Notes under the pieces: model-generated | Databases searched by the model: none | What the model was told of the DNA's origin: nothing | Seen by the model: only the letters and a program-made list of their open reading frames with translations | Program-made: the position numbers and the translations under genes | Assembly (NCBI GenBank): GCA_000828835.1 | Contig: AP014633.1 | Span: 2,170,001-2,234,000 of the forward strand | Source: Thioploca ingrica | Lineage (GTDB): Bacteria > Pseudomonadota > Gammaproteobacteria > Beggiatoales > Beggiatoaceae | Length of the DNA stretch: 64,000 bases | Direction of reading: 5' to 3' | Shown here: in pieces, positions 10,721 through 56,969 of the stretch | How positions within the stretch are numbered: the first letter of the stretch is position 1 | How the letters are laid out: each line of letters starts with the position of its first letter

Positions 10721-10724
10721 CCGC

Positions 10725-10800
10725 GTAGGGTGTATAAGCGAAGCGTCATACACCCTTGTTTGCTTCTGGTGGATGGCGGCTGACGCCTTATCCACCCTAC
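10725..10800. repeat. Paired GTAG-type palindromes
   Basis: Plus copy: GTAG (10725), stem GGTGTAT, loop AAGCGAAGCGTC, stem ATACACC (to 10754). Minus copy: CTAC at 10797-10800 with stem GGTGGAT/ATCCACC and a diverged loop. The pair lies between the convergent last nif gene and the EF-hand gene, where it may act as a bidirectional stop. Confidence 0.75.
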
Positions 10801-35071: not shown

Positions 35072-35488
35072 TTAAATAGCCGAATACCATTTAGAACCAA
35101 ATAAACCCCCTTCCTTGGCTTTCCAACCATTTTCCTCCATCATGTTCTTGAGTCGCTTTTTCATCTCTGGTTCTGGAATTTTATTCTTACTAGCCGATTT
35201 GAAAATCGCCAGCGTATCTTCAAATTCCTTCTTATCCACTTTGCCATCATTAGTGGCAAACCTTTCTAACATTTCTTTAGCCCGTTCTTCAGCCTCCCGT
35301 TCGAGAACTAAGCCTTTGTCCGCCGCAACTTGGCGGATAATCGCTAACCCTTCCTCAACTCCGATTCCCTTTTTAATTCCTTCTTCAAGAATTTTTTTCT
35401 CTTCTTTCCGATCAATATATTTATCATCAAACACTTGTAGCATAATGTAATCAACAAATGCTTTTTTGACATCCCCTGATAGCATCAT
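35072..35488 (-). CDS. Member 3 of a tandem triplet of 138-residue helical proteins
   Basis: A 138-residue, charged, helix-rich cytoplasmic protein with no assigned family. Conserved landmarks shared by all three copies are QVFDDKYIDRKEEKKIL, an EF-hand-like segment NDGKVDKKEFED near residue 76, and the C-terminal WKAKEGGLFGSKWYSAI. An AAGGAG site precedes the ATG. It is last in a three-gene array on one strand with gaps of 35 and 24 nt, suggesting one transcript and unequal-crossover origin. Confidence 0.85.
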   Translation of the reverse strand: MMLSGDVKKAFVDYIMLQVFDDKYIDRKEEKKILEEGIKKGIGVEEGLAIIRQVAADKGLVLEREAEERAKEMLERFATNDGKVDKKEFEDTLAIFKSASKNKIPEPEMKKRLKNMMEENGWKAKEGGLFGSKWYSAI

Positions 35489-35523
35489 AGTTAAAACTCC
35501 TTAATTCAGAATAAAAAACCAAT

Positions 35524-35940
35524 TTAAATTGCTGAATACCACTTGGTTCCAAATAATCCACCTTCCTTAGCTTTCCAAGCATTATCCTCCATCATTTTTT
35601 TCAACCGCTGTTTTATTTCTGGTTCAGTCAGCTTACCCTTAGTAGCTGTTTTCAATAAGTTAACCGCTTCCTCAAATTCCTTTTTATCGACTTTACCATC
35701 ATTACTCGCGGCTCTTTCGAGAACAGCTTGCGCTTGTTCTTCAGCATCTCTTTCAACTACTAACCCCTTATCAGCCGCAACTTGTCGAATGAGAGATAAA
35801 CTTTCTTCTACTCCAATCCCATTTTTAACACCGACCTCAAGGATTCTTTTTTCTTCTTGACGACTGATGTATTGATCATCAAAAGCTTGCAATTTAATGA
35901 ACTCAATAAACTGAGTTTTAATACCTTCTGGAACAGTCAT
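35524..35940 (-). CDS. Member 2 of a tandem triplet of 138-residue helical proteins
   Basis: A 138-residue paralogue of its two neighbours, with the same blocks (QAFDDQYISRQEEKRILEVG, NDGKVDKKEFEEA, WKAKEGGLFGTKWYSAI). The NDGKVDKKEFE stretch has acidic residues at EF-hand spacing but only in part of the loop, so calcium binding is uncertain. An AGGAGAAATAGT leader precedes the ATG. The function is unknown. Confidence 0.85.
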   Translation of the reverse strand: MTVPEGIKTQFIEFIKLQAFDDQYISRQEEKRILEVGVKNGIGVEESLSLIRQVAADKGLVVERDAEEQAQAVLERAASNDGKVDKKEFEEAVNLLKTATKGKLTEPEIKQRLKKMMEDNAWKAKEGGLFGTKWYSAI

Positions 35941-35964
35941 ACTATTTCTCCTTTAACACTCACT

Positions 35965-36387
35965 TTACTCTGGTATGGATGAAAACCATTTAGAACCAAA
36001 TAACCCACCTTCCTTGGCTTTCCAACCTCTTTCCAATATTATTTTTTTTAACCGCTTTTTTAGTTCTGGTTCTGGCACTTTGCCTTTACAGGAAGATTTA
36101 AATAGTGCCAATGCATCTTCAAATTCTTTCTTATCAATAACCCCATCATTGAGCGCAAATTGTTGTAAAATTTCTTTAATTCGCTCTTCCACTTCTCTTT
36201 CAATGACCCAACCTTTTTCTGCCGCAATTTGTCGCATGATCGCCAATCCGTCATCAACACTCATTCCTTGTTTGATTCCTTCAGCCAGAATCTTTTTTTC
36301 TTCTTGACGATCAATATATTGATCATCAAAAACTTGTAGCATAATATATTCAATAAATTGTTTTTTAACCGGTTCAGATACAGCCAT
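35965..36387 (-). CDS. Member 1 of a tandem triplet of 138-residue helical proteins
   Basis: A 140-residue first member of the triplet on the minus strand, with QVFDDQYIDRQEEKKILAEG, NDGVIDKKEFEDA and WKAKEGGLFGSKWFSSIPE. It is the most divergent in the middle region. A GGGAGAATAGGT leader carries a ribosome site. The promoter for the three genes should lie in 36388-36500; no consensus was identified there. Confidence 0.85.
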   Translation of the reverse strand: MAVSEPVKKQFIEYIMLQVFDDQYIDRQEEKKILAEGIKQGMSVDDGLAIMRQIAAEKGWVIEREVEERIKEILQQFALNDGVIDKKEFEDALALFKSSCKGKVPEPELKKRLKKIILERGWKAKEGGLFGSKWFSSIPE

Positions 36388-36736: not shown

Positions 36737-37696
36737 ATGATGCACAACATAAAAAAATCGCTAGGACTTGCTACTGTTATTAGTACGTTACTCACTGTTC
36801 CTCATATAGCTACTGCGTATTACGGTATGGATGGTATGCAAGGTTATGGTATGGGTGGCATGGGCATGAACGGCATGTACCCGATGGGTGGCATGGGCGG
36901 CATGTACCCGATGTACGGTGGTGGCATGGGTGGCATGGGCGGCATGTACCCGATGTACGGTGGTGGTATGGGTGGCATGGGCGGCATGGGCCAGACGTAC
37001 GGTGGTGGTATGGGCGGCATGTACCCGATGTACGGTGGTGGTGGTATGGGTGGCATGGGCCAGACGTACGGTGGTGGTATGGGTGGCATGTACCCGATGT
37101 ACGGTGGTGGTATGGGTGGCATGGGCGGCATGTACCCGATGTACGGTGGTGGCATGGGTGGCATGGGTGGCATGGGTCAGACGTACGGTGGTGGTATGGG
37201 CGGCATGTATCCCATGTCTGGAATGCAAGGGATGCAAGGGATGCAAGGGATGCAAGGCGGTTGCACACCTAAAACGGGTGAACAACAAGACCAAAGCAGC
37301 ATGAGTGGGATGCAAGGTATGTATCCTATGTATGGTGGGATGCAAGGTATGTATCCCATGTATGGTGGGATGCAAGGTATGCAAGGTATGTATCCCATGT
37401 ATGGCATGATGAATAATATGTCTGGCATGGGTGGCATGTCTGGCATGGGCGGCATGTCTGGTATGGGCGGCATGTCTGGCATGGGCGGCATGTCTGGTAT
37501 GGGTGGCATGTCTGGTATGGGTGGCATGCGTGGCATGTCTGACATGAGCGGTATGTCTTCTAGCAAGGAAGGCAGTACGTCTGGCATATCTAGTATGGAC
37601 GCCATGTCTGGCATGAGTAATGGTGGTACGACGGGAATGAGTGGCATGTCATCCGGTGGCATGTCATCCGGTGGTAATAAAAAAGAAGAAAAATAA
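36737..37696 (+). CDS. Secreted Gly/Met-repeat protein
   Basis: A 319-residue protein with a Sec signal (KKSLGLATVISTLLTVPHIA, cleaved near ATA-YYG) followed by low-complexity sequence built from GMGGM, MYPMYGGG, GMQGM and SGMGGM units. It ends in a Ser/Lys-rich tail. Methionine and glycine dominate; one cysteine (GGCTPKTGEQQ) breaks the pattern. Met-rich secreted proteins can bind Cu(I) or take up oxidants, while Gly/Tyr repeats suit sheath or surface structural roles; neither is established here. The underlying DNA is a series of near-exact repeats, so copy number should vary between strains. Confidence 0.85.
   Translation: MMHNIKKSLGLATVISTLLTVPHIATAYYGMDGMQGYGMGGMGMNGMYPMGGMGGMYPMYGGGMGGMGGMYPMYGGGMGGMGGMGQTYGGGMGGMYPMYGGGGMGGMGQTYGGGMGGMYPMYGGGMGGMGGMYPMYGGGMGGMGGMGQTYGGGMGGMYPMSGMQGMQGMQGMQGGCTPKTGEQQDQSSMSGMQGMYPMYGGMQGMYPMYGGMQGMQGMYPMYGMMNNMSGMGGMSGMGGMSGMGGMSGMGGMSGMGGMSGMGGMRGMSDMSGMSSSKEGSTSGISSMDAMSGMSNGGTTGMSGMSSGGMSSGGNKKEEK
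36836..37550 (+). repeat. Coding tandem repeats of the Gly/Met protein
   Basis: The DNA alternates near-identical units such as GGTGGTATGGGTGGCATGGG and CATGTACCCGATGTACGGTG (36850-37200). Blocks of ATGCAAGG (37220-37255) and then ATGTCTGGCATGGGCGGC (37425-37530) follow. Third-base changes within units are few, indicating recent expansion or gene conversion. Confidence 0.85.
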
Positions 37697-37736
37697 GGTA
37701 AAAGGTACAACACAACATTAGTGTTTAGGATAGTCA

Positions 37737-38140
37737 ACTACCCCGTCCTCAAGGACGGAGCTTGCCAAAGCTAGGTTGACCAGACTCAGTTGCTCGCAAG
37801 GGTAGCTACGCTTACCAGAGGTCGTTAAGACTTACCCGTGGATGCTTCCTGAGTCCACTGCTCTAAAAGGTTAGAATTACGCTGGGGAAAGGTAAAGCCC
37901 CGAAGGTTTTAACCGCTACTAGCCATAGTAGGAGCCGCTGGTAAGCCTTGTCGAAGGGAGCTGGCGGGAAACCGCCGCGTCACTAGCCCCGTAAGGGGAG
38001 GGCTTAACCGCCTGACCGCTGGGAAAGACCAGCACCTCATTTTTACTTACCGAGATAACCTAACAACCAGAGGAGCGAGAACCGGGTCGGCTTACGCCGA
38101 CGCGCTATCCCTCCCCGTCCTCAAGAACGAGGTTTCTCGC
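37737..38140. mobile_element. TnpB-less IS200/IS605-like relic with structured interior
   Basis: Bounded by related palindromic ends: CCGTCCTCAAGGACGG at 37743-37758 and CCCCGTCCTCAAGAACGAGG near 38114-38133, the type of end seen on tnpB-carrying IS200/IS605 elements. About 350 nt between them contain no transposase reading frame, but several GC-rich stems are present (for example CTAGCCCCGTAAGGGG and GCTGGTAAGC segments). Such regions beside tnpB encode the guide omega-RNA; here the protein gene is absent, so this is an internally deleted, non-autonomous copy or an orphan structured RNA. Confidence 0.6.
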
Positions 38141-45547: not shown

Positions 45548-45695
45548 TGATTTCTCTTATTAAAGATGGATGTTTACTGTTTCGACTTTGGCTATTTTAT
45601 AGTATGGTTGAAATATTCAACCGGGTTAAAGTTGAGTTAAGTATAATCTTTTTCAATCCGCTACTCACTATTATTTTATAGCAAGTGTAGCAAGC

Positions 45696-45772
45696 GTAGG
45701 GCGGATAAGCGTAGCGTCATCCGCCATAACGGATGTTTTAATGGTGAATGACGCTTCGCTTATGCACCCTAC
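45696..45772. repeat. Paired GTAG-type palindromes
   Basis: Plus copy: GTAG (45696), GGCGGAT, loop AAGCGTAGCGTC, ATCCGCC (to 45725). Minus copy: CTAC 45769-45772, GGTGCAT, loop AAGCGAAGCGTC, ATTCACC. The two loops differ by one base, while the stems are different and each self-complementary. It lies 15 bp after the lptE stop. Confidence 0.85.
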
Positions 45773-45786
45773 GCGACTAATTCATC

Positions 45787-50991: not shown

Positions 50992-52065
50992 TTATTTTGA
51001 TTCAATATACTGATATAACTTATCTAATAGATCTCTTTGGGTCTTTACGCTTTTGTCTAAATCGGCATATATCAATTTAATTTCTTGTTCAGTTGGTTGA
51101 AGTGTGATGTTGTTTGCCTTTTTATTGCGTTCGATACAGTAAATTTTATGAAAGTGTTCCATATAAGCTTGTGCTAATTGCACCGCTTGTGTACTTGACT
51201 CGATCGGCTTTAAACTCACACGCCGCCATCTGTCTGCAAGAGAAGTATATTGGCTACCAATTGTAGTAAAGCTACCTTCTTGTCCCGCAACAATGACAAA
51301 TAAGGTATCCCAATTAAAACAATTCAACATATTTTTAAATGTTTGAATAAATTCTGTCTTTTCTTTCTTACCGAATTGCTGAACATCTTCAAATTCATCA
51401 ACTAATAATATTACTTTATCAATGATATTCCGTTCTCTCATGCCAGTTATAATCGTTTTTAAATAGGGAAAAGCAACTGCTGGAGGAACACGTTCTTTTG
51501 ACCATATTTGGTATTGTTCTCTTTCTCTGGCCAGCGTAGTATTTCCCATGAGCCATTTCATCAAAAATTGAGCATGGGGATTTTCTACACGACTGAGTCC
51601 CATTTGTTTAATCGCTTCAGATTCCAAGAAACGCCATAAATCAGTTCCTCTTAAAGAACTCGGCAAACTGATTTTTTGCTCCAGGAAATCTTTAAAACGT
51701 TCTTCTCCGATAGTCACGACCAGTTCTTCAACCAACTCTCTTGAGCTAATAAATCCACTGATATATTTAGAAACGATTTTCGTGGTTAACAGACCATTTT
51801 GTTGTGCTTGTTTTAATTCCCATTCAATATGTTGTAAGAAATTGCTTTTCCCAATACCGCGAGCCGCTTCCAATACCCAAAAACCACCACTTTCTTTATT
51901 AGCCACCAGAAAATTTGATAATTCATTCTGCAAACTATTGAGTTCCGGACGTTCAACATAAACTTCCGCCGCGACTTTCCCCCTAATTGGAAAAGGGTTC
52001 GATAAATAACCAAGTTTTTCATATCGTTCAATTTTTTTAGGCGTTTCTAGTTTTAAAAAACTCAT
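50992..52065 (-). CDS. ORC/Cdc6-like AAA ATPase, third gene of the AAA-PIN operon
   Basis: A 357-residue soluble P-loop ATPase. An N-terminal LGYLSNPFPIRG precedes the ATPase, as in ORC/Cdc6-like proteins. Walker A is AARGIGKSNFLQ near residue 67, and Walker B is ILLVDEFEDVQQ near residue 220, followed by a sensor-like FVIVAGQEGSF and an arginine-rich DRWRRVSLKP. The start ATG is at 52065 with AAAGG upstream, 20 nt after the PIN gene's stop. Proteins of this type act as NTP-driven switches in several bacterial conflict systems. Its substrate is not indicated by sequence. Confidence 0.85.
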   Translation of the reverse strand: MSFLKLETPKKIERYEKLGYLSNPFPIRGKVAAEVYVERPELNSLQNELSNFLVANKESGGFWVLEAARGIGKSNFLQHIEWELKQAQQNGLLTTKIVSKYISGFISSRELVEELVVTIGEERFKDFLEQKISLPSSLRGTDLWRFLESEAIKQMGLSRVENPHAQFLMKWLMGNTTLAREREQYQIWSKERVPPAVAFPYLKTIITGMRERNIIDKVILLVDEFEDVQQFGKKEKTEFIQTFKNMLNCFNWDTLFVIVAGQEGSFTTIGSQYTSLADRWRRVSLKPIESSTQAVQLAQAYMEHFHKIYCIERNKKANNITLQPTEQEIKLIYADLDKSVKTQRDLLDKLYQYIESK

Positions 52066-52085
52066 ATTAATAATGCCTTTTTGAT

Positions 52086-53894
52086 CTAAAGTATAATGAC
52101 TTGGCTAGATTCATTTGGAATTAAAAAGTCACCCGCACCTAAATCAATTTCATGTTCATTTTGTTGAGGGATAAATACTCTCACCTTAACTGGATTTTCT
52201 GCTGAGTCTGGGATAGTACCACCTAATCTTATTTTGTTGCTGTCAAATAATTCATAGAGTCCAATACGAAAAGTAGGTACTGACAATGGGGTTGTGGTTA
52301 ATAAATAAGTGAATACTTTGTCTACTCTAACTGCACTACTAATATTATCTGCTTTTAAATGAGAAGTGGCTTCAAAAATTAACTGAGCAGCTTCTTGTGG
52401 TTGTTTATCTTCCACTTTCCAAGTTTTTCCCTTCAAACGGACTACTAAACCAAAAGCATTGGCCAATATAGATTGACTACGTGTATCTCTCAATGACAGT
52501 CCTAATTTTTTAGCTAAGCTATCATCTGGTTCTGATTGGCAGATTACCAGGGTATTTTGTAATAAAATTTGCTTATCAAGCCGATTGATATCTTTTCTTG
52601 CCTCTTGTATCCAGTCATACCATGCATTGACATGAATTGGTTCTAAGTTAGACCAAGTTTCTATAATTTTTCTACCACGAGGGAGAATAGCAAATTGATC
52701 ATTTATTTTTTCAATCCATTGCAAGGCTTGTAAATAGGATGATGTTTGCGAAGATAAACTCTCCCTATTTATAGGTTGTGTCACGGCAGATTTTAATCCT
52801 TCAAGAATATCTGAAGGAGATGGGGCACGTTTAGGTACGGTATTGGTAGCATTTTCTAGTGAAAAAACGGGGTTATTTTTTTTTAGTATACTGATTCGCT
52901 CACATTTTTCTTCCAGGCAAACTACTTTCTGCATATCTAATTGAGCATATTGACACATTTTTTCATTAGACAAATCCCAAACTTGACGGATTGCTTGACC
53001 TTCTTGTTGTAGTGTTATTATCCCCCAATCCCATAAACATTCTTCTAGAAATTCTTCTATCGTTAAGTGGTAAGGTGTAAAAGAACGTGGTTCAATATAA
53101 GGCGAGGTTATAATAAATGATTGTTGATCTTCTGGTATTTTTGGCTGTCTGGTAAAACCCGCATTAAAACCCTCTAACTCTACTTGAATCGCAAAGTTGG
53201 CATCACCAGTGACTAACCATATAGGAATATTCGGTAAAATTTGTCTTTGGTGGCGTAACGCTTCTAAGATCAAACGATCCCTCTGATAATTACTTCCTTT
53301 ACTTTCTGGCTCATCATTACTGTCGCTGATTTCAGCACCAAAATAACGCACCATTGCTTCTGGTGGACGGATATAGTACACCATTCCTCTTTCCTTAAGT
53401 CGGTAGATAGAACGAGTCGATGCAAATTGTAATTTTCTCAAGCGTCTTAGTTTTAAACAATTTTGATCCTTAGATTTTTTGTTATGTTCCCTTTGTAACT
53501 GGATTTCCATATAGACTTGATCAGGAATAGCAATATGTGTTGCTTTATCTTGTCGTAACCGAATGGCTTGCTCTAAATAACCATGGTGTAATGCGCAAGT
53601 ATCGGCAACCAGACCAATATTTTTTTCACTTTGCAGTGCTTTTTTAAATTTATCAGTAAAAATAACTGGCTTTAAACCTAATCGATAGGTAGTATCAAGT
53701 AAAGCACCTCTTACATCTATTGCTTTTGGCAACGCCTCATTACTAGAATTAGTGTAATTAAATTTAAAATACCATTGACCTAATTGCTGACTTTCTTCTT
53801 CTACACAATTCACTTCTAATATGCCAAAGTGAATATCCTTTTGCTGACATTTCGTCCCGAACCAATAATAACCGGATTGCACATTAAAGTTCAT
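52086..53894 (-). CDS. PIN-domain protein, second gene of the AAA-PIN operon
   Basis: A 602-residue protein. Residues about 90-255 carry a PIN-nuclease pattern: VADTCALHHG (first Asp), DQVYMEIQLQ (Glu), RDRLILEALRHQ (Asp) and WLVTGDANFAIQ (Asp), the metal-binding acidic set of PIN RNases. An N-terminal strand-rich part of about 85 residues and a long C-terminal region (about 300 residues) match nothing I know. GGAG about 8 nt upstream supports the ATG at 53894 over a TTG at 53900. Its genes on both sides are nearly contiguous, so the ATPase and small protein are expected partners. Confidence 0.8.
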   Translation of the reverse strand: MNFNVQSGYYWFGTKCQQKDIHFGILEVNCVEEESQQLGQWYFKFNYTNSSNEALPKAIDVRGALLDTTYRLGLKPVIFTDKFKKALQSEKNIGLVADTCALHHGYLEQAIRLRQDKATHIAIPDQVYMEIQLQREHNKKSKDQNCLKLRRLRKLQFASTRSIYRLKERGMVYYIRPPEAMVRYFGAEISDSNDEPESKGSNYQRDRLILEALRHQRQILPNIPIWLVTGDANFAIQVELEGFNAGFTRQPKIPEDQQSFIITSPYIEPRSFTPYHLTIEEFLEECLWDWGIITLQQEGQAIRQVWDLSNEKMCQYAQLDMQKVVCLEEKCERISILKKNNPVFSLENATNTVPKRAPSPSDILEGLKSAVTQPINRESLSSQTSSYLQALQWIEKINDQFAILPRGRKIIETWSNLEPIHVNAWYDWIQEARKDINRLDKQILLQNTLVICQSEPDDSLAKKLGLSLRDTRSQSILANAFGLVVRLKGKTWKVEDKQPQEAAQLIFEATSHLKADNISSAVRVDKVFTYLLTTTPLSVPTFRIGLYELFDSNKIRLGGTIPDSAENPVKVRVFIPQQNEHEIDLGAGDFLIPNESSQVIIL

Positions 53895-53900
53895 TGCCAA

Positions 53901-54281
53901 TTACTCCAAGAGCAATAGATAGGTATTCAGGCTTTGGATATTAGAGTCTTGATTCTCTTCAATTACAACATCTTGGTTACCTTCAAGTAACAGGAGATCA
54001 CTCGCTAAATGACCAAATACTAATGAGAGATCGACATTAAGTATTTGTCCATTAATTTCCCATGTAGTTAATCTTGAATTTTCAATGAATAGTAGTTCTG
54101 GTATCTGGTCTAACAATTTTTGTAGTTCACTCACTGGCATTGAAGAAGCTTGCCAATTTTCTGCGTTGATAAAGTTTTTAACCCATTCGGGTGTTTCAGT
54201 AGATGATTGGCTATCAAGTCCTATCAATGATGGGCTTGCTTTAACAATTGAACTGGTTTCATCAATCAGTTTGATTTTCAT
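53901..54281 (-). CDS. Small first gene of the AAA-PIN operon, unknown
   Basis: An acidic 126-residue protein with no recognised domain. It starts MKIKLIDETSSIVKASPSLI and ends in leucine-rich NTYLLLLE. The ATG at 54281 is chosen over a TTG at 54287. Its stop is 6 nt from the PIN gene start. Being first in a tight operon and small, it could be a regulator, sensor or antitoxin-like partner; this is inference only. Confidence 0.7.
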   Translation of the reverse strand: MKIKLIDETSSIVKASPSLIGLDSQSSTETPEWVKNFINAENWQASSMPVSELQKLLDQIPELLFIENSRLTTWEINGQILNVDLSLVFGHLASDLLLLEGNQDVVIEENQDSNIQSLNTYLLLLE

Positions 54282-54503: not shown

Positions 54504-55100
54504 ATGAGTAAAAAACGTAATACGCTGTGTCTGCGACCAGAAATGGGTTGGGCTATTCGTGACTCGCTTAAGTCATTCCCTAACCCCCGGGTGCCAAGGG
54601 TCGGGATGAATACTTTGACAACCTACATTTTTCTTGACATTGATGGTGTGTTGGTTAAAGAAGAAACGTTCACAGAAATTAATTTGGAAGAAGACTTACC
54701 GCGCCTAGATGAATTTTGTGTTAACTGGTTTGCCGAAACCGTGCGTCGCTATCCTCATACCAAAATTGTCATCTCTTCGTCGTGGCGAGAAATTTATAGC
54801 TTGGAGGTAATTAAGTCAGTCTTTCCCAAAGACATTGCCGATCGAATCGAAGGGACTACCCCATTGTATAACCGCCCAGCAAAATTTTTTCGCTACCAAG
54901 AGGTACTCGACTATCTAGAAACTCATGATGCCTTAGAACAACCTTGGGTAGCCATAGATGATATCCGTGAGCATTATCCCCCGCAGGTATTGGTTATTGT
55001 CACTAACCCCTATGTTGGCTTCAACGAAACCTCGGCTAAGGAGTTAGCTCGGTTTCTGAATCAGGTTACGCACCCGATGGGTTTTCCTCAGCGAGTGTAG
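54504..55100 (+). CDS. HAD-domain protein of the SAK type
   Basis: Contains a HAD phosphatase-like core from TTYIFLDIDGVLVKEETFTE (nucleophile D in FLDIDGV), through IVISSSWREIYSLEV (motif II) to WVAIDDIREHYPP (motif IV). This is the arrangement of HAD domains linked to Swiss-army-knife RNA repair proteins. The start may be the ATG at 54606 (MNTLTTYIFLDIDG); the 34 residues before it do not look like the domain. It is divergent from the AAA-PIN operon, 216 nt away. A link to RNA repair there is speculative. Confidence 0.78.
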   Translation: MSKKRNTLCLRPEMGWAIRDSLKSFPNPRVPRVGMNTLTTYIFLDIDGVLVKEETFTEINLEEDLPRLDEFCVNWFAETVRRYPHTKIVISSSWREIYSLEVIKSVFPKDIADRIEGTTPLYNRPAKFFRYQEVLDYLETHDALEQPWVAIDDIREHYPPQVLVIVTNPYVGFNETSAKELARFLNQVTHPMGFPQRV

Positions 55101-56597: not shown

Positions 56598-56659
56598 ATA
56601 TTAATTTTGCTTCTCCTGGATTTTGCTACGCTTCATTCAGTTAGGGTGCGTTAGCACGC

Positions 56660-56730
56660 GTAGGGTGTATAAACGCAGTGCCATACACCAAACTGGTAAA
56701 GGTGCATGACGCTTCGCTTATGCACCCTAC
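56660..56730. repeat. Paired GTAG-type palindromes
   Basis: Plus copy: GTAG (56660), GGTGTAT, loop AAACGCAGTGCC, ATACACC (to 56689). Minus copy: GGTGCAT (56701), GACGCTTCGCTT, ATGCACC, CTAC (to 56730). The 476-bp gap from 56494 to 56969 also contains the terminator and about 230 bp of AT-rich promoter-like sequence without a gene. Confidence 0.85.
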
Positions 56731-56969
56731 ACGCTTAATTGAAATCAATAATTAATACTAAGTTGCCTCCTTTTCCCACTTCCGGATAAAGATCCCCTAC
56801 TAGGTAAAAATACGAGTATGATAAACTATATAGCAAAGTGGGTGCGAATAGGAAAGGTCGTTTTATATTGGTAGCGAAATCAAAGTTTAGTGTGTGCAAC
56901 TTGCCCTATTTATTAGAAGAAACTGGCAAGCTTGTTTAAAACACTGTAATTTAAGGAGAAGTAATTTTT

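Follow-up and report, generated by a model that had tools for sequence, protein, structure and literature searches.

The window, which is the whole 64,000-nucleotide stretch of the Thioploca ingrica genome analysed here (G000, C1:2170001-2234000), carries three minus-strand genes at positions 50992-54281. Gene 1 (53901..54281) encodes a small acidic protein, which has no known domain and is conserved in the clade of the window. Gene 2 (52086..53894) encodes a predicted PIN nuclease of 602 aa, with an N-terminal region of predicted beta-strands and a C-terminal adaptor half. Gene 3 (50992..52065) encodes a 357-aa ATPase of the ORC/Cdc6-type AAA+ class, a relative of the BrxC/BrxD-type ATPases. 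The open reading frame coordinates give intergenic gaps of 6 and 20 nt, as in the preliminary description, and each motif quoted there (VADTC, VYMEIQ, RDRLI, VTGDAN, GIGKSN and LLVDEFED) is found in the translations.

No model in Pfam, PADLOC or NCBIfam covers the trio. Nor is it described in the searched main-text passages of openly accessible papers on conflict systems, BREX diversity, EVE domains and phosphorothioation. A T. nelsonii genome paper gives just a count of PIN-domain genes. Divergent from the trio lies a HAD_SAK_2 gene (54504-55100, +; in Pfam, a HAD domain in RNA repair proteins). We considered this gene as a fourth component and rejected it, since it was not seen beside the homologous modules at other loci.

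Other features were seen elsewhere in the window. HEARO RNAs are associated with HNH/IscB-type genes. An Rfam HEARO RNA scores above threshold at 37733-37965 (+) with no same-strand ORF of at least 130 aa just downstream, and is perhaps an orphan copy. The stretch 36737-37696 (+) encodes a predicted protein of 319 aa that looks secreted and consists mainly of Met-Gly-rich repeats, and 35072-36387 (-) holds three related genes in tandem, of 138-140 aa each. A repeat of about 35-90 bases with inverted halves (GCGTAGGGTGTATAAGCG... / ...CGCTTATGCACCCTACGC) occurs at 10722-10757, 45693-45782 and 56657-56740, and the stretch at 56.65-56.75 kb has many short matches in the congener G299.

A PIN gene followed directly by an ATPase gene was found at 15 loci in several phyla, with a small gene upstream at 13 of them. 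The gene order was the same whether the PIN protein or the ATPase served as the query. Three further genomes of the family (G316, G330 and G326) have same-order orthologues at 46-51% identity; the PIN-protein search of the family returned these three at 46-49%, each with the ATPase gene directly after the PIN gene and a small gene before it. A more distant trio orthologue is present in G687 (L031). The ATPase profile identified this locus together with L032 (a gammaproteobacterium), L033 (Albidovulum), L034 (Pseudomonadales), L035 (Calothrix) and L036 (Riflebacteria), and in all six the ATPase gene is immediately preceded by a PIN gene. The PIN profile added G943 and G1055, where the ATPase gene is again adjacent. 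Second, divergent copies of the module were found in T. nelsonii (L038) and Albidovulum (L059, PIN gene broken). The upstream small gene was recognised by reading frames in L032 and L060; L036 showed none, and neither did the L059 copy, which is short and broken. By the preliminary description, homologues that do not co-occur would have spoken against the trio; the 15 PIN-ATPase loci show that they do co-occur.

The module sequences form two clades, B (the window type) and A. Identities of the PIN protein and the ATPase within clades are correlated (r 0.945, n=25 pairs, permutation p 0.0004), which indicates that the two genes travel together. We regard it as near certain that the three-gene unit is a conserved, co-inherited module. 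A pattern scan of the genome contigs with the window ATPase alone found no relative, whereas the wider ATPase alignment A4 succeeded. Tblastn of P0001 against phages and plasmids, and of P0002 and P0004 against plasmids, gave no match, and a scan of viral contigs with family A5 found none. PDB sequence searches gave no meaningful relative.

The PIN domain of gene 2 spans residues ~92-259 (53118..53621, minus strand). The window protein passes Pfam PIN_4 with 28.5 bits against a curated cut-off of 21.9. The segment 92-259 matched PIN domains by Foldseek, and by VIA its best match was 3i8o (Z 12.2, rmsd 3.8 over 134 residues), with further matches to SMG6 (Z 11.3) and the SiRe_0806 protein (Z 10.9). 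None of the four acids (D98, E130, D206 and D231) varies among 11 homologues, of which the remotest are ~16-19% identical; the preliminary description had noted a full acidic PIN set. Catalytic PIN domains are usually metal-dependent nucleases. With its catalytic residues intact, the domain looks like an active nuclease, as judged from sequence. The nearest solved PIN domains (SMG6, Rrp44 and Nmd4) come from RNA-decay proteins and act on RNA, which suggests that RNA is a likelier substrate than DNA.

The preliminary description had left the flanks of the PIN domain unassigned. They are now assigned in part: a winged-helix-like segment lies in the C-terminal half, which is also homologous to a separate haloarchaeal adaptor protein described below. 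Residues ~359-417 (52644..52820, minus strand) matched CggR (Z 8.4, rmsd 1.4 over 59 residues) and Sso10a (Z 7.4) by VIA. The AlphaFold model behind these matches is of low confidence, with a pLDDT of 41. The ATPase model has a pLDDT of 54. Both were built from alignments of only 4 sequences, so fold conclusions for the two proteins are limited to the well-matched segments.

In the gene 3 product, the Walker A motif GIGKSN (51841..51858) and the Walker B motif LLVDEFED (51385..51408), both on the minus strand, contain residues that are invariant in distant homologues: G70, G72, K73 and N75 in the former, and L221, D223, E224 and E226 in the latter. No Pfam model passes on the window ATPase; AAA_22 reaches E 4.6e-4, which is under its cut-off, and no match to BrxC_BrxD (PF10923) was reported. 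Two clade A homologues pass BrxC_BrxD with 34.4 and 29.7 bits against 22.2. By VIA, the model matched RdrA, Cdc6/Orc1, ORC subunits, BrxC and TnsC at Z ~7-9, and Foldseek E-values were weak (best 3.6e-3), so the ATPase class is likely, with several candidates for the closest relative. The earlier assignment as an ORC-like AAA ATPase with Walker A and B motifs agrees with the invariant motifs and the ORC1/Cdc6-class matches. BrxD is itself described as an ORC-Cdc6 ATPase in a BREX survey (PMC12839542). A weak PADLOC mad8 match was dismissed as unspecific for the kind of ATPase, because the mad8 model picks up a RecD-like and a HerA-like protein as well. Together, the same-order orthologues in relatives and the motif residues invariant in distant homologues place the trio beyond chance.

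The gene 1 product has 126 aa from an ATG start or 128 aa from a TTG start and a pI of 4.14. In Pfam, PADLOC and NCBIfam it has no match that reaches a family cut-off. The small proteins of clade B are strongly acidic (pI 4.05-4.78, n=5), and those of clade A are less so. No relatedness was detected between the small proteins of the two clades, as 26 of 150 shuffles scored equally well. The preliminary description had cast this protein as a sensor or an inhibitor, both of them guesses; the strong acidity in the window clade would fit an inhibitor.

The trio is mobile. It is sporadic, occurring in 6 of 43 family genomes by strong match, in 1 of 369 genomes of the class sample (the window's own) and in 2 of 292, 2 of 237 and 1 of 40 genomes in three phylum samples, each of which counts in the genome on which its search was centred. 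It is AT-rich relative to its flanks (GC 34-36% vs 38-46%), and relatives carry it at differing genomic sites. It is also decayed or partly deleted in two genomes, the congener G299 and T. nelsonii. Compared with G299, the left flank of the window keeps 90% identity as far as 51006, which falls just within the ATPase gene near its end, and differs from there on; the right flank picks up again from 55409 on another contig. Elsewhere G299 retains the small gene and the start of the PIN gene as a decayed remnant (80% identical DNA). It also has a divergent copy of the clade A type, in which the PIN gene carries two frameshifts that may be errors of assembly. The site occupied in G330 is found in T. 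nelsonii at L037:3276-5296 (94% identical), where the small and PIN genes have been lost and the ATPase gene is intact. The ATPase may thus serve some other purpose or have been orphaned recently. No convincing transposon-type terminal repeats were found around the module.

Two further observations concern insertion sites. Transfer RNA genes are a common insertion point for mobile elements, and two cyanobacteria have a tRNA-Ser gene just downstream of the module (L052:11885-11971 and L058:10686-10772). In G299, an antitoxin-like small gene and a PIN_3 toxin gene, forming a VapBC pair, lie at L071:5733-6388, ~660 bases past rlmI. The pair begins ~600 bases beyond the identity break, past the point that corresponds to the trio in the window.

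Some modules have defence genes as neighbours. The G687 module directly adjoins hsdMSR at one end and an integrase at its other end, the G688 module sits between the HmaB and HmaA genes, and the G691 module adjoins a helicase that matches a PADLOC helicase model. In Albidovulum, a DUF4411 gene accompanied by an M78 peptidase regulator lies close to the module. In all, 3 of ~15 loci are directly beside defence genes and 1 is near a DUF4411/M78 pair, a raw count that is suggestive. Most loci, the window included, lie among housekeeping-type genes and outside dense defence islands.

A parallel arrangement was found in haloarchaea. Tblastn of a clade A ATPase against plasmids returned five haloarchaeal records with the annotation "BREX system ATP-binding domain-containing protein". 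All five regions have the gene order transglycosylase, hypothetical protein, ATPase, and 7-deazaguanine (queuosine-type) genes are close to some of them. The transglycosylase has a Pfam TGT match and a weak PADLOC DpdA match. The haloarchaeal ATPases match the BrxD and SngB models and are homologous to the module ATPases (hhalign probability 99%; 94% with clade B only). The hypothetical protein aligns over its full length, in 225 columns, to the C-terminal half of the PIN protein. This alignment scored 38.7 against 13.8 +/- 2.5 for column shuffles, none of 150 being as good; the control is lenient because column shuffling wipes out local order. The shared gene position and the full-length collinearity add weight to the homology.

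The conserved trio, its intact catalytic residues, its fold classes, the adaptor homology and the mobility are results of computation; a role in defence, ATP gating, an RNA substrate and a restraining role of the small protein are inferred. Since the trio moves between genomes and sometimes lies inside known antiviral clusters, it is probably an undescribed defence module, and service in defence is somewhat more probable than not. Our preferred reading, which we put forward tentatively, is a mobile conflict module, likely directed against invaders, in which a PIN nuclease is placed by the ATPase and restrained by the small protein. The PIN protein would act as a metal-dependent nuclease, tethered to the ATPase through its winged-helix C-terminal half. 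By analogy with other ORC/Cdc6-type AAA+ proteins, the ATPase probably assembles on nucleic acid and probably spends ATP to position the nuclease or let it go. Until an invader signal arrives, the nuclease would probably be kept inactive by the small acidic protein, perhaps through mimicry of nucleic acid. The preliminary description had already read the trio as an NTP-gated RNase system for defence or abortive response; the active-looking PIN domain, the ORC-like AAA+ ATPase, the co-inheritance and some defence neighbours elsewhere speak for this, and the gating and the RNase activity remain predictions.

The trio could instead be a selfish element of the toxin-antitoxin kind, kept by addiction rather than for defence, with a PIN toxin, an acidic small antitoxin and the ATPase as accessory regulator. 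PIN domains are well known as toxins, an acidic small protein is encoded upstream, the small and PIN genes were lost jointly in T. nelsonii with the ATPase retained, and the matching site of the congener has a VapBC pair with a PIN_3 toxin just past rlmI. However, the PIN protein has 600-700 aa and is fused to an adaptor half, the ATPase is as conserved as the PIN protein, and tight linkage to hsdMSR and HmaAB is atypical for addiction pairs; we consider this explanation rather unlikely.

A DNA-directed, restriction-like accessory, whose ATPase and winged-helix adaptor recognise DNA and whose PIN domain cuts DNA or R-loops alongside a modification system, would account for the modules that adjoin HmaB/HmaA and hsdMSR, for the winged-helix match and for the related ATPase-adaptor pairs that adjoin a DpdA-like transglycosylase in haloarchaeal plasmids. 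It is unlikely, as most loci, the window included, have no modification gene nearby and the closest solved PIN domains belong to RNA decay. PIN domains also act in RNA maturation and the neighbours are mostly housekeeping genes, as a housekeeping complex for RNA processing or repair would have it; the very patchy distribution, the site changes within a genus, and the decay and deletion make such a complex highly improbable.

Should the mobile trio serve in defence, it would be a case of BREX-type ATPases joined to a PIN nuclease by a shared adaptor, and its haloarchaeal counterpart suggests that the same platform can take a base-modifying enzyme instead. A hitherto undescribed adaptor and ORC-type ATPase platform with swappable enzymes, which would be a fused PIN nuclease for bacteria and a separate DpdA-like transglycosylase for haloarchaea, might then form a distinct class of NTP-driven anti-invader systems, a suggestion about which we are doubtful. 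A defence module would also offer a testable route to the role of stand-alone BrxD-like ATPases, which a 2026 survey (PMC12839542) treats as distinct but uncharacterised.

Compared with named systems, the trio shows partial likeness to several. BrxC/BrxD (PF10923) of BREX and SngB of Shango share the ORC/Cdc6 AAA+ type with the module ATPase. However, no PglZ, PglX, PglW or BrxHI partner is seen beside the module, no BREX core (PglZ with a BrxC-type protein) was found by eye among the ORFs of window 48-58 kb, and the divergent neighbour gene matched no BREX model. Likewise no SngA or SngC partner is seen, the partner here being the PIN-adaptor protein. In the Hma and BREX-related type-1 systems (DUF499 ATPase, methylase, helicase), one module lies between HmaB and HmaA, but the module ATPase has no PADLOC HmaC match and most modules have no adjoining Hma genes. 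RADAR has a similar plan of AAA+ ring and effector enzyme, and its RdrA ranks with the best structural matches of the module ATPase; the RADAR effector is an adenosine deaminase instead of a PIN nuclease, and no RdrA sequence match was found. VapBC and other PIN toxin-antitoxin pairs share the PIN catalytic fold and the small protein encoded upstream. However, VapBC has two genes, for a short PIN toxin and a DNA-binding antitoxin, whereas the trio has a 602-aa PIN protein with an adaptor half and adds an obligate-looking, conserved third gene for an AAA+ ATPase. In the Dpd-type haloarchaeal trios, for which no gene 1 relative was identified, the ATPase and the adaptor are homologous to those of the module and the gene order is alike, but the enzyme is a separate transglycosylase in place of the PIN domain fused to the adaptor here.
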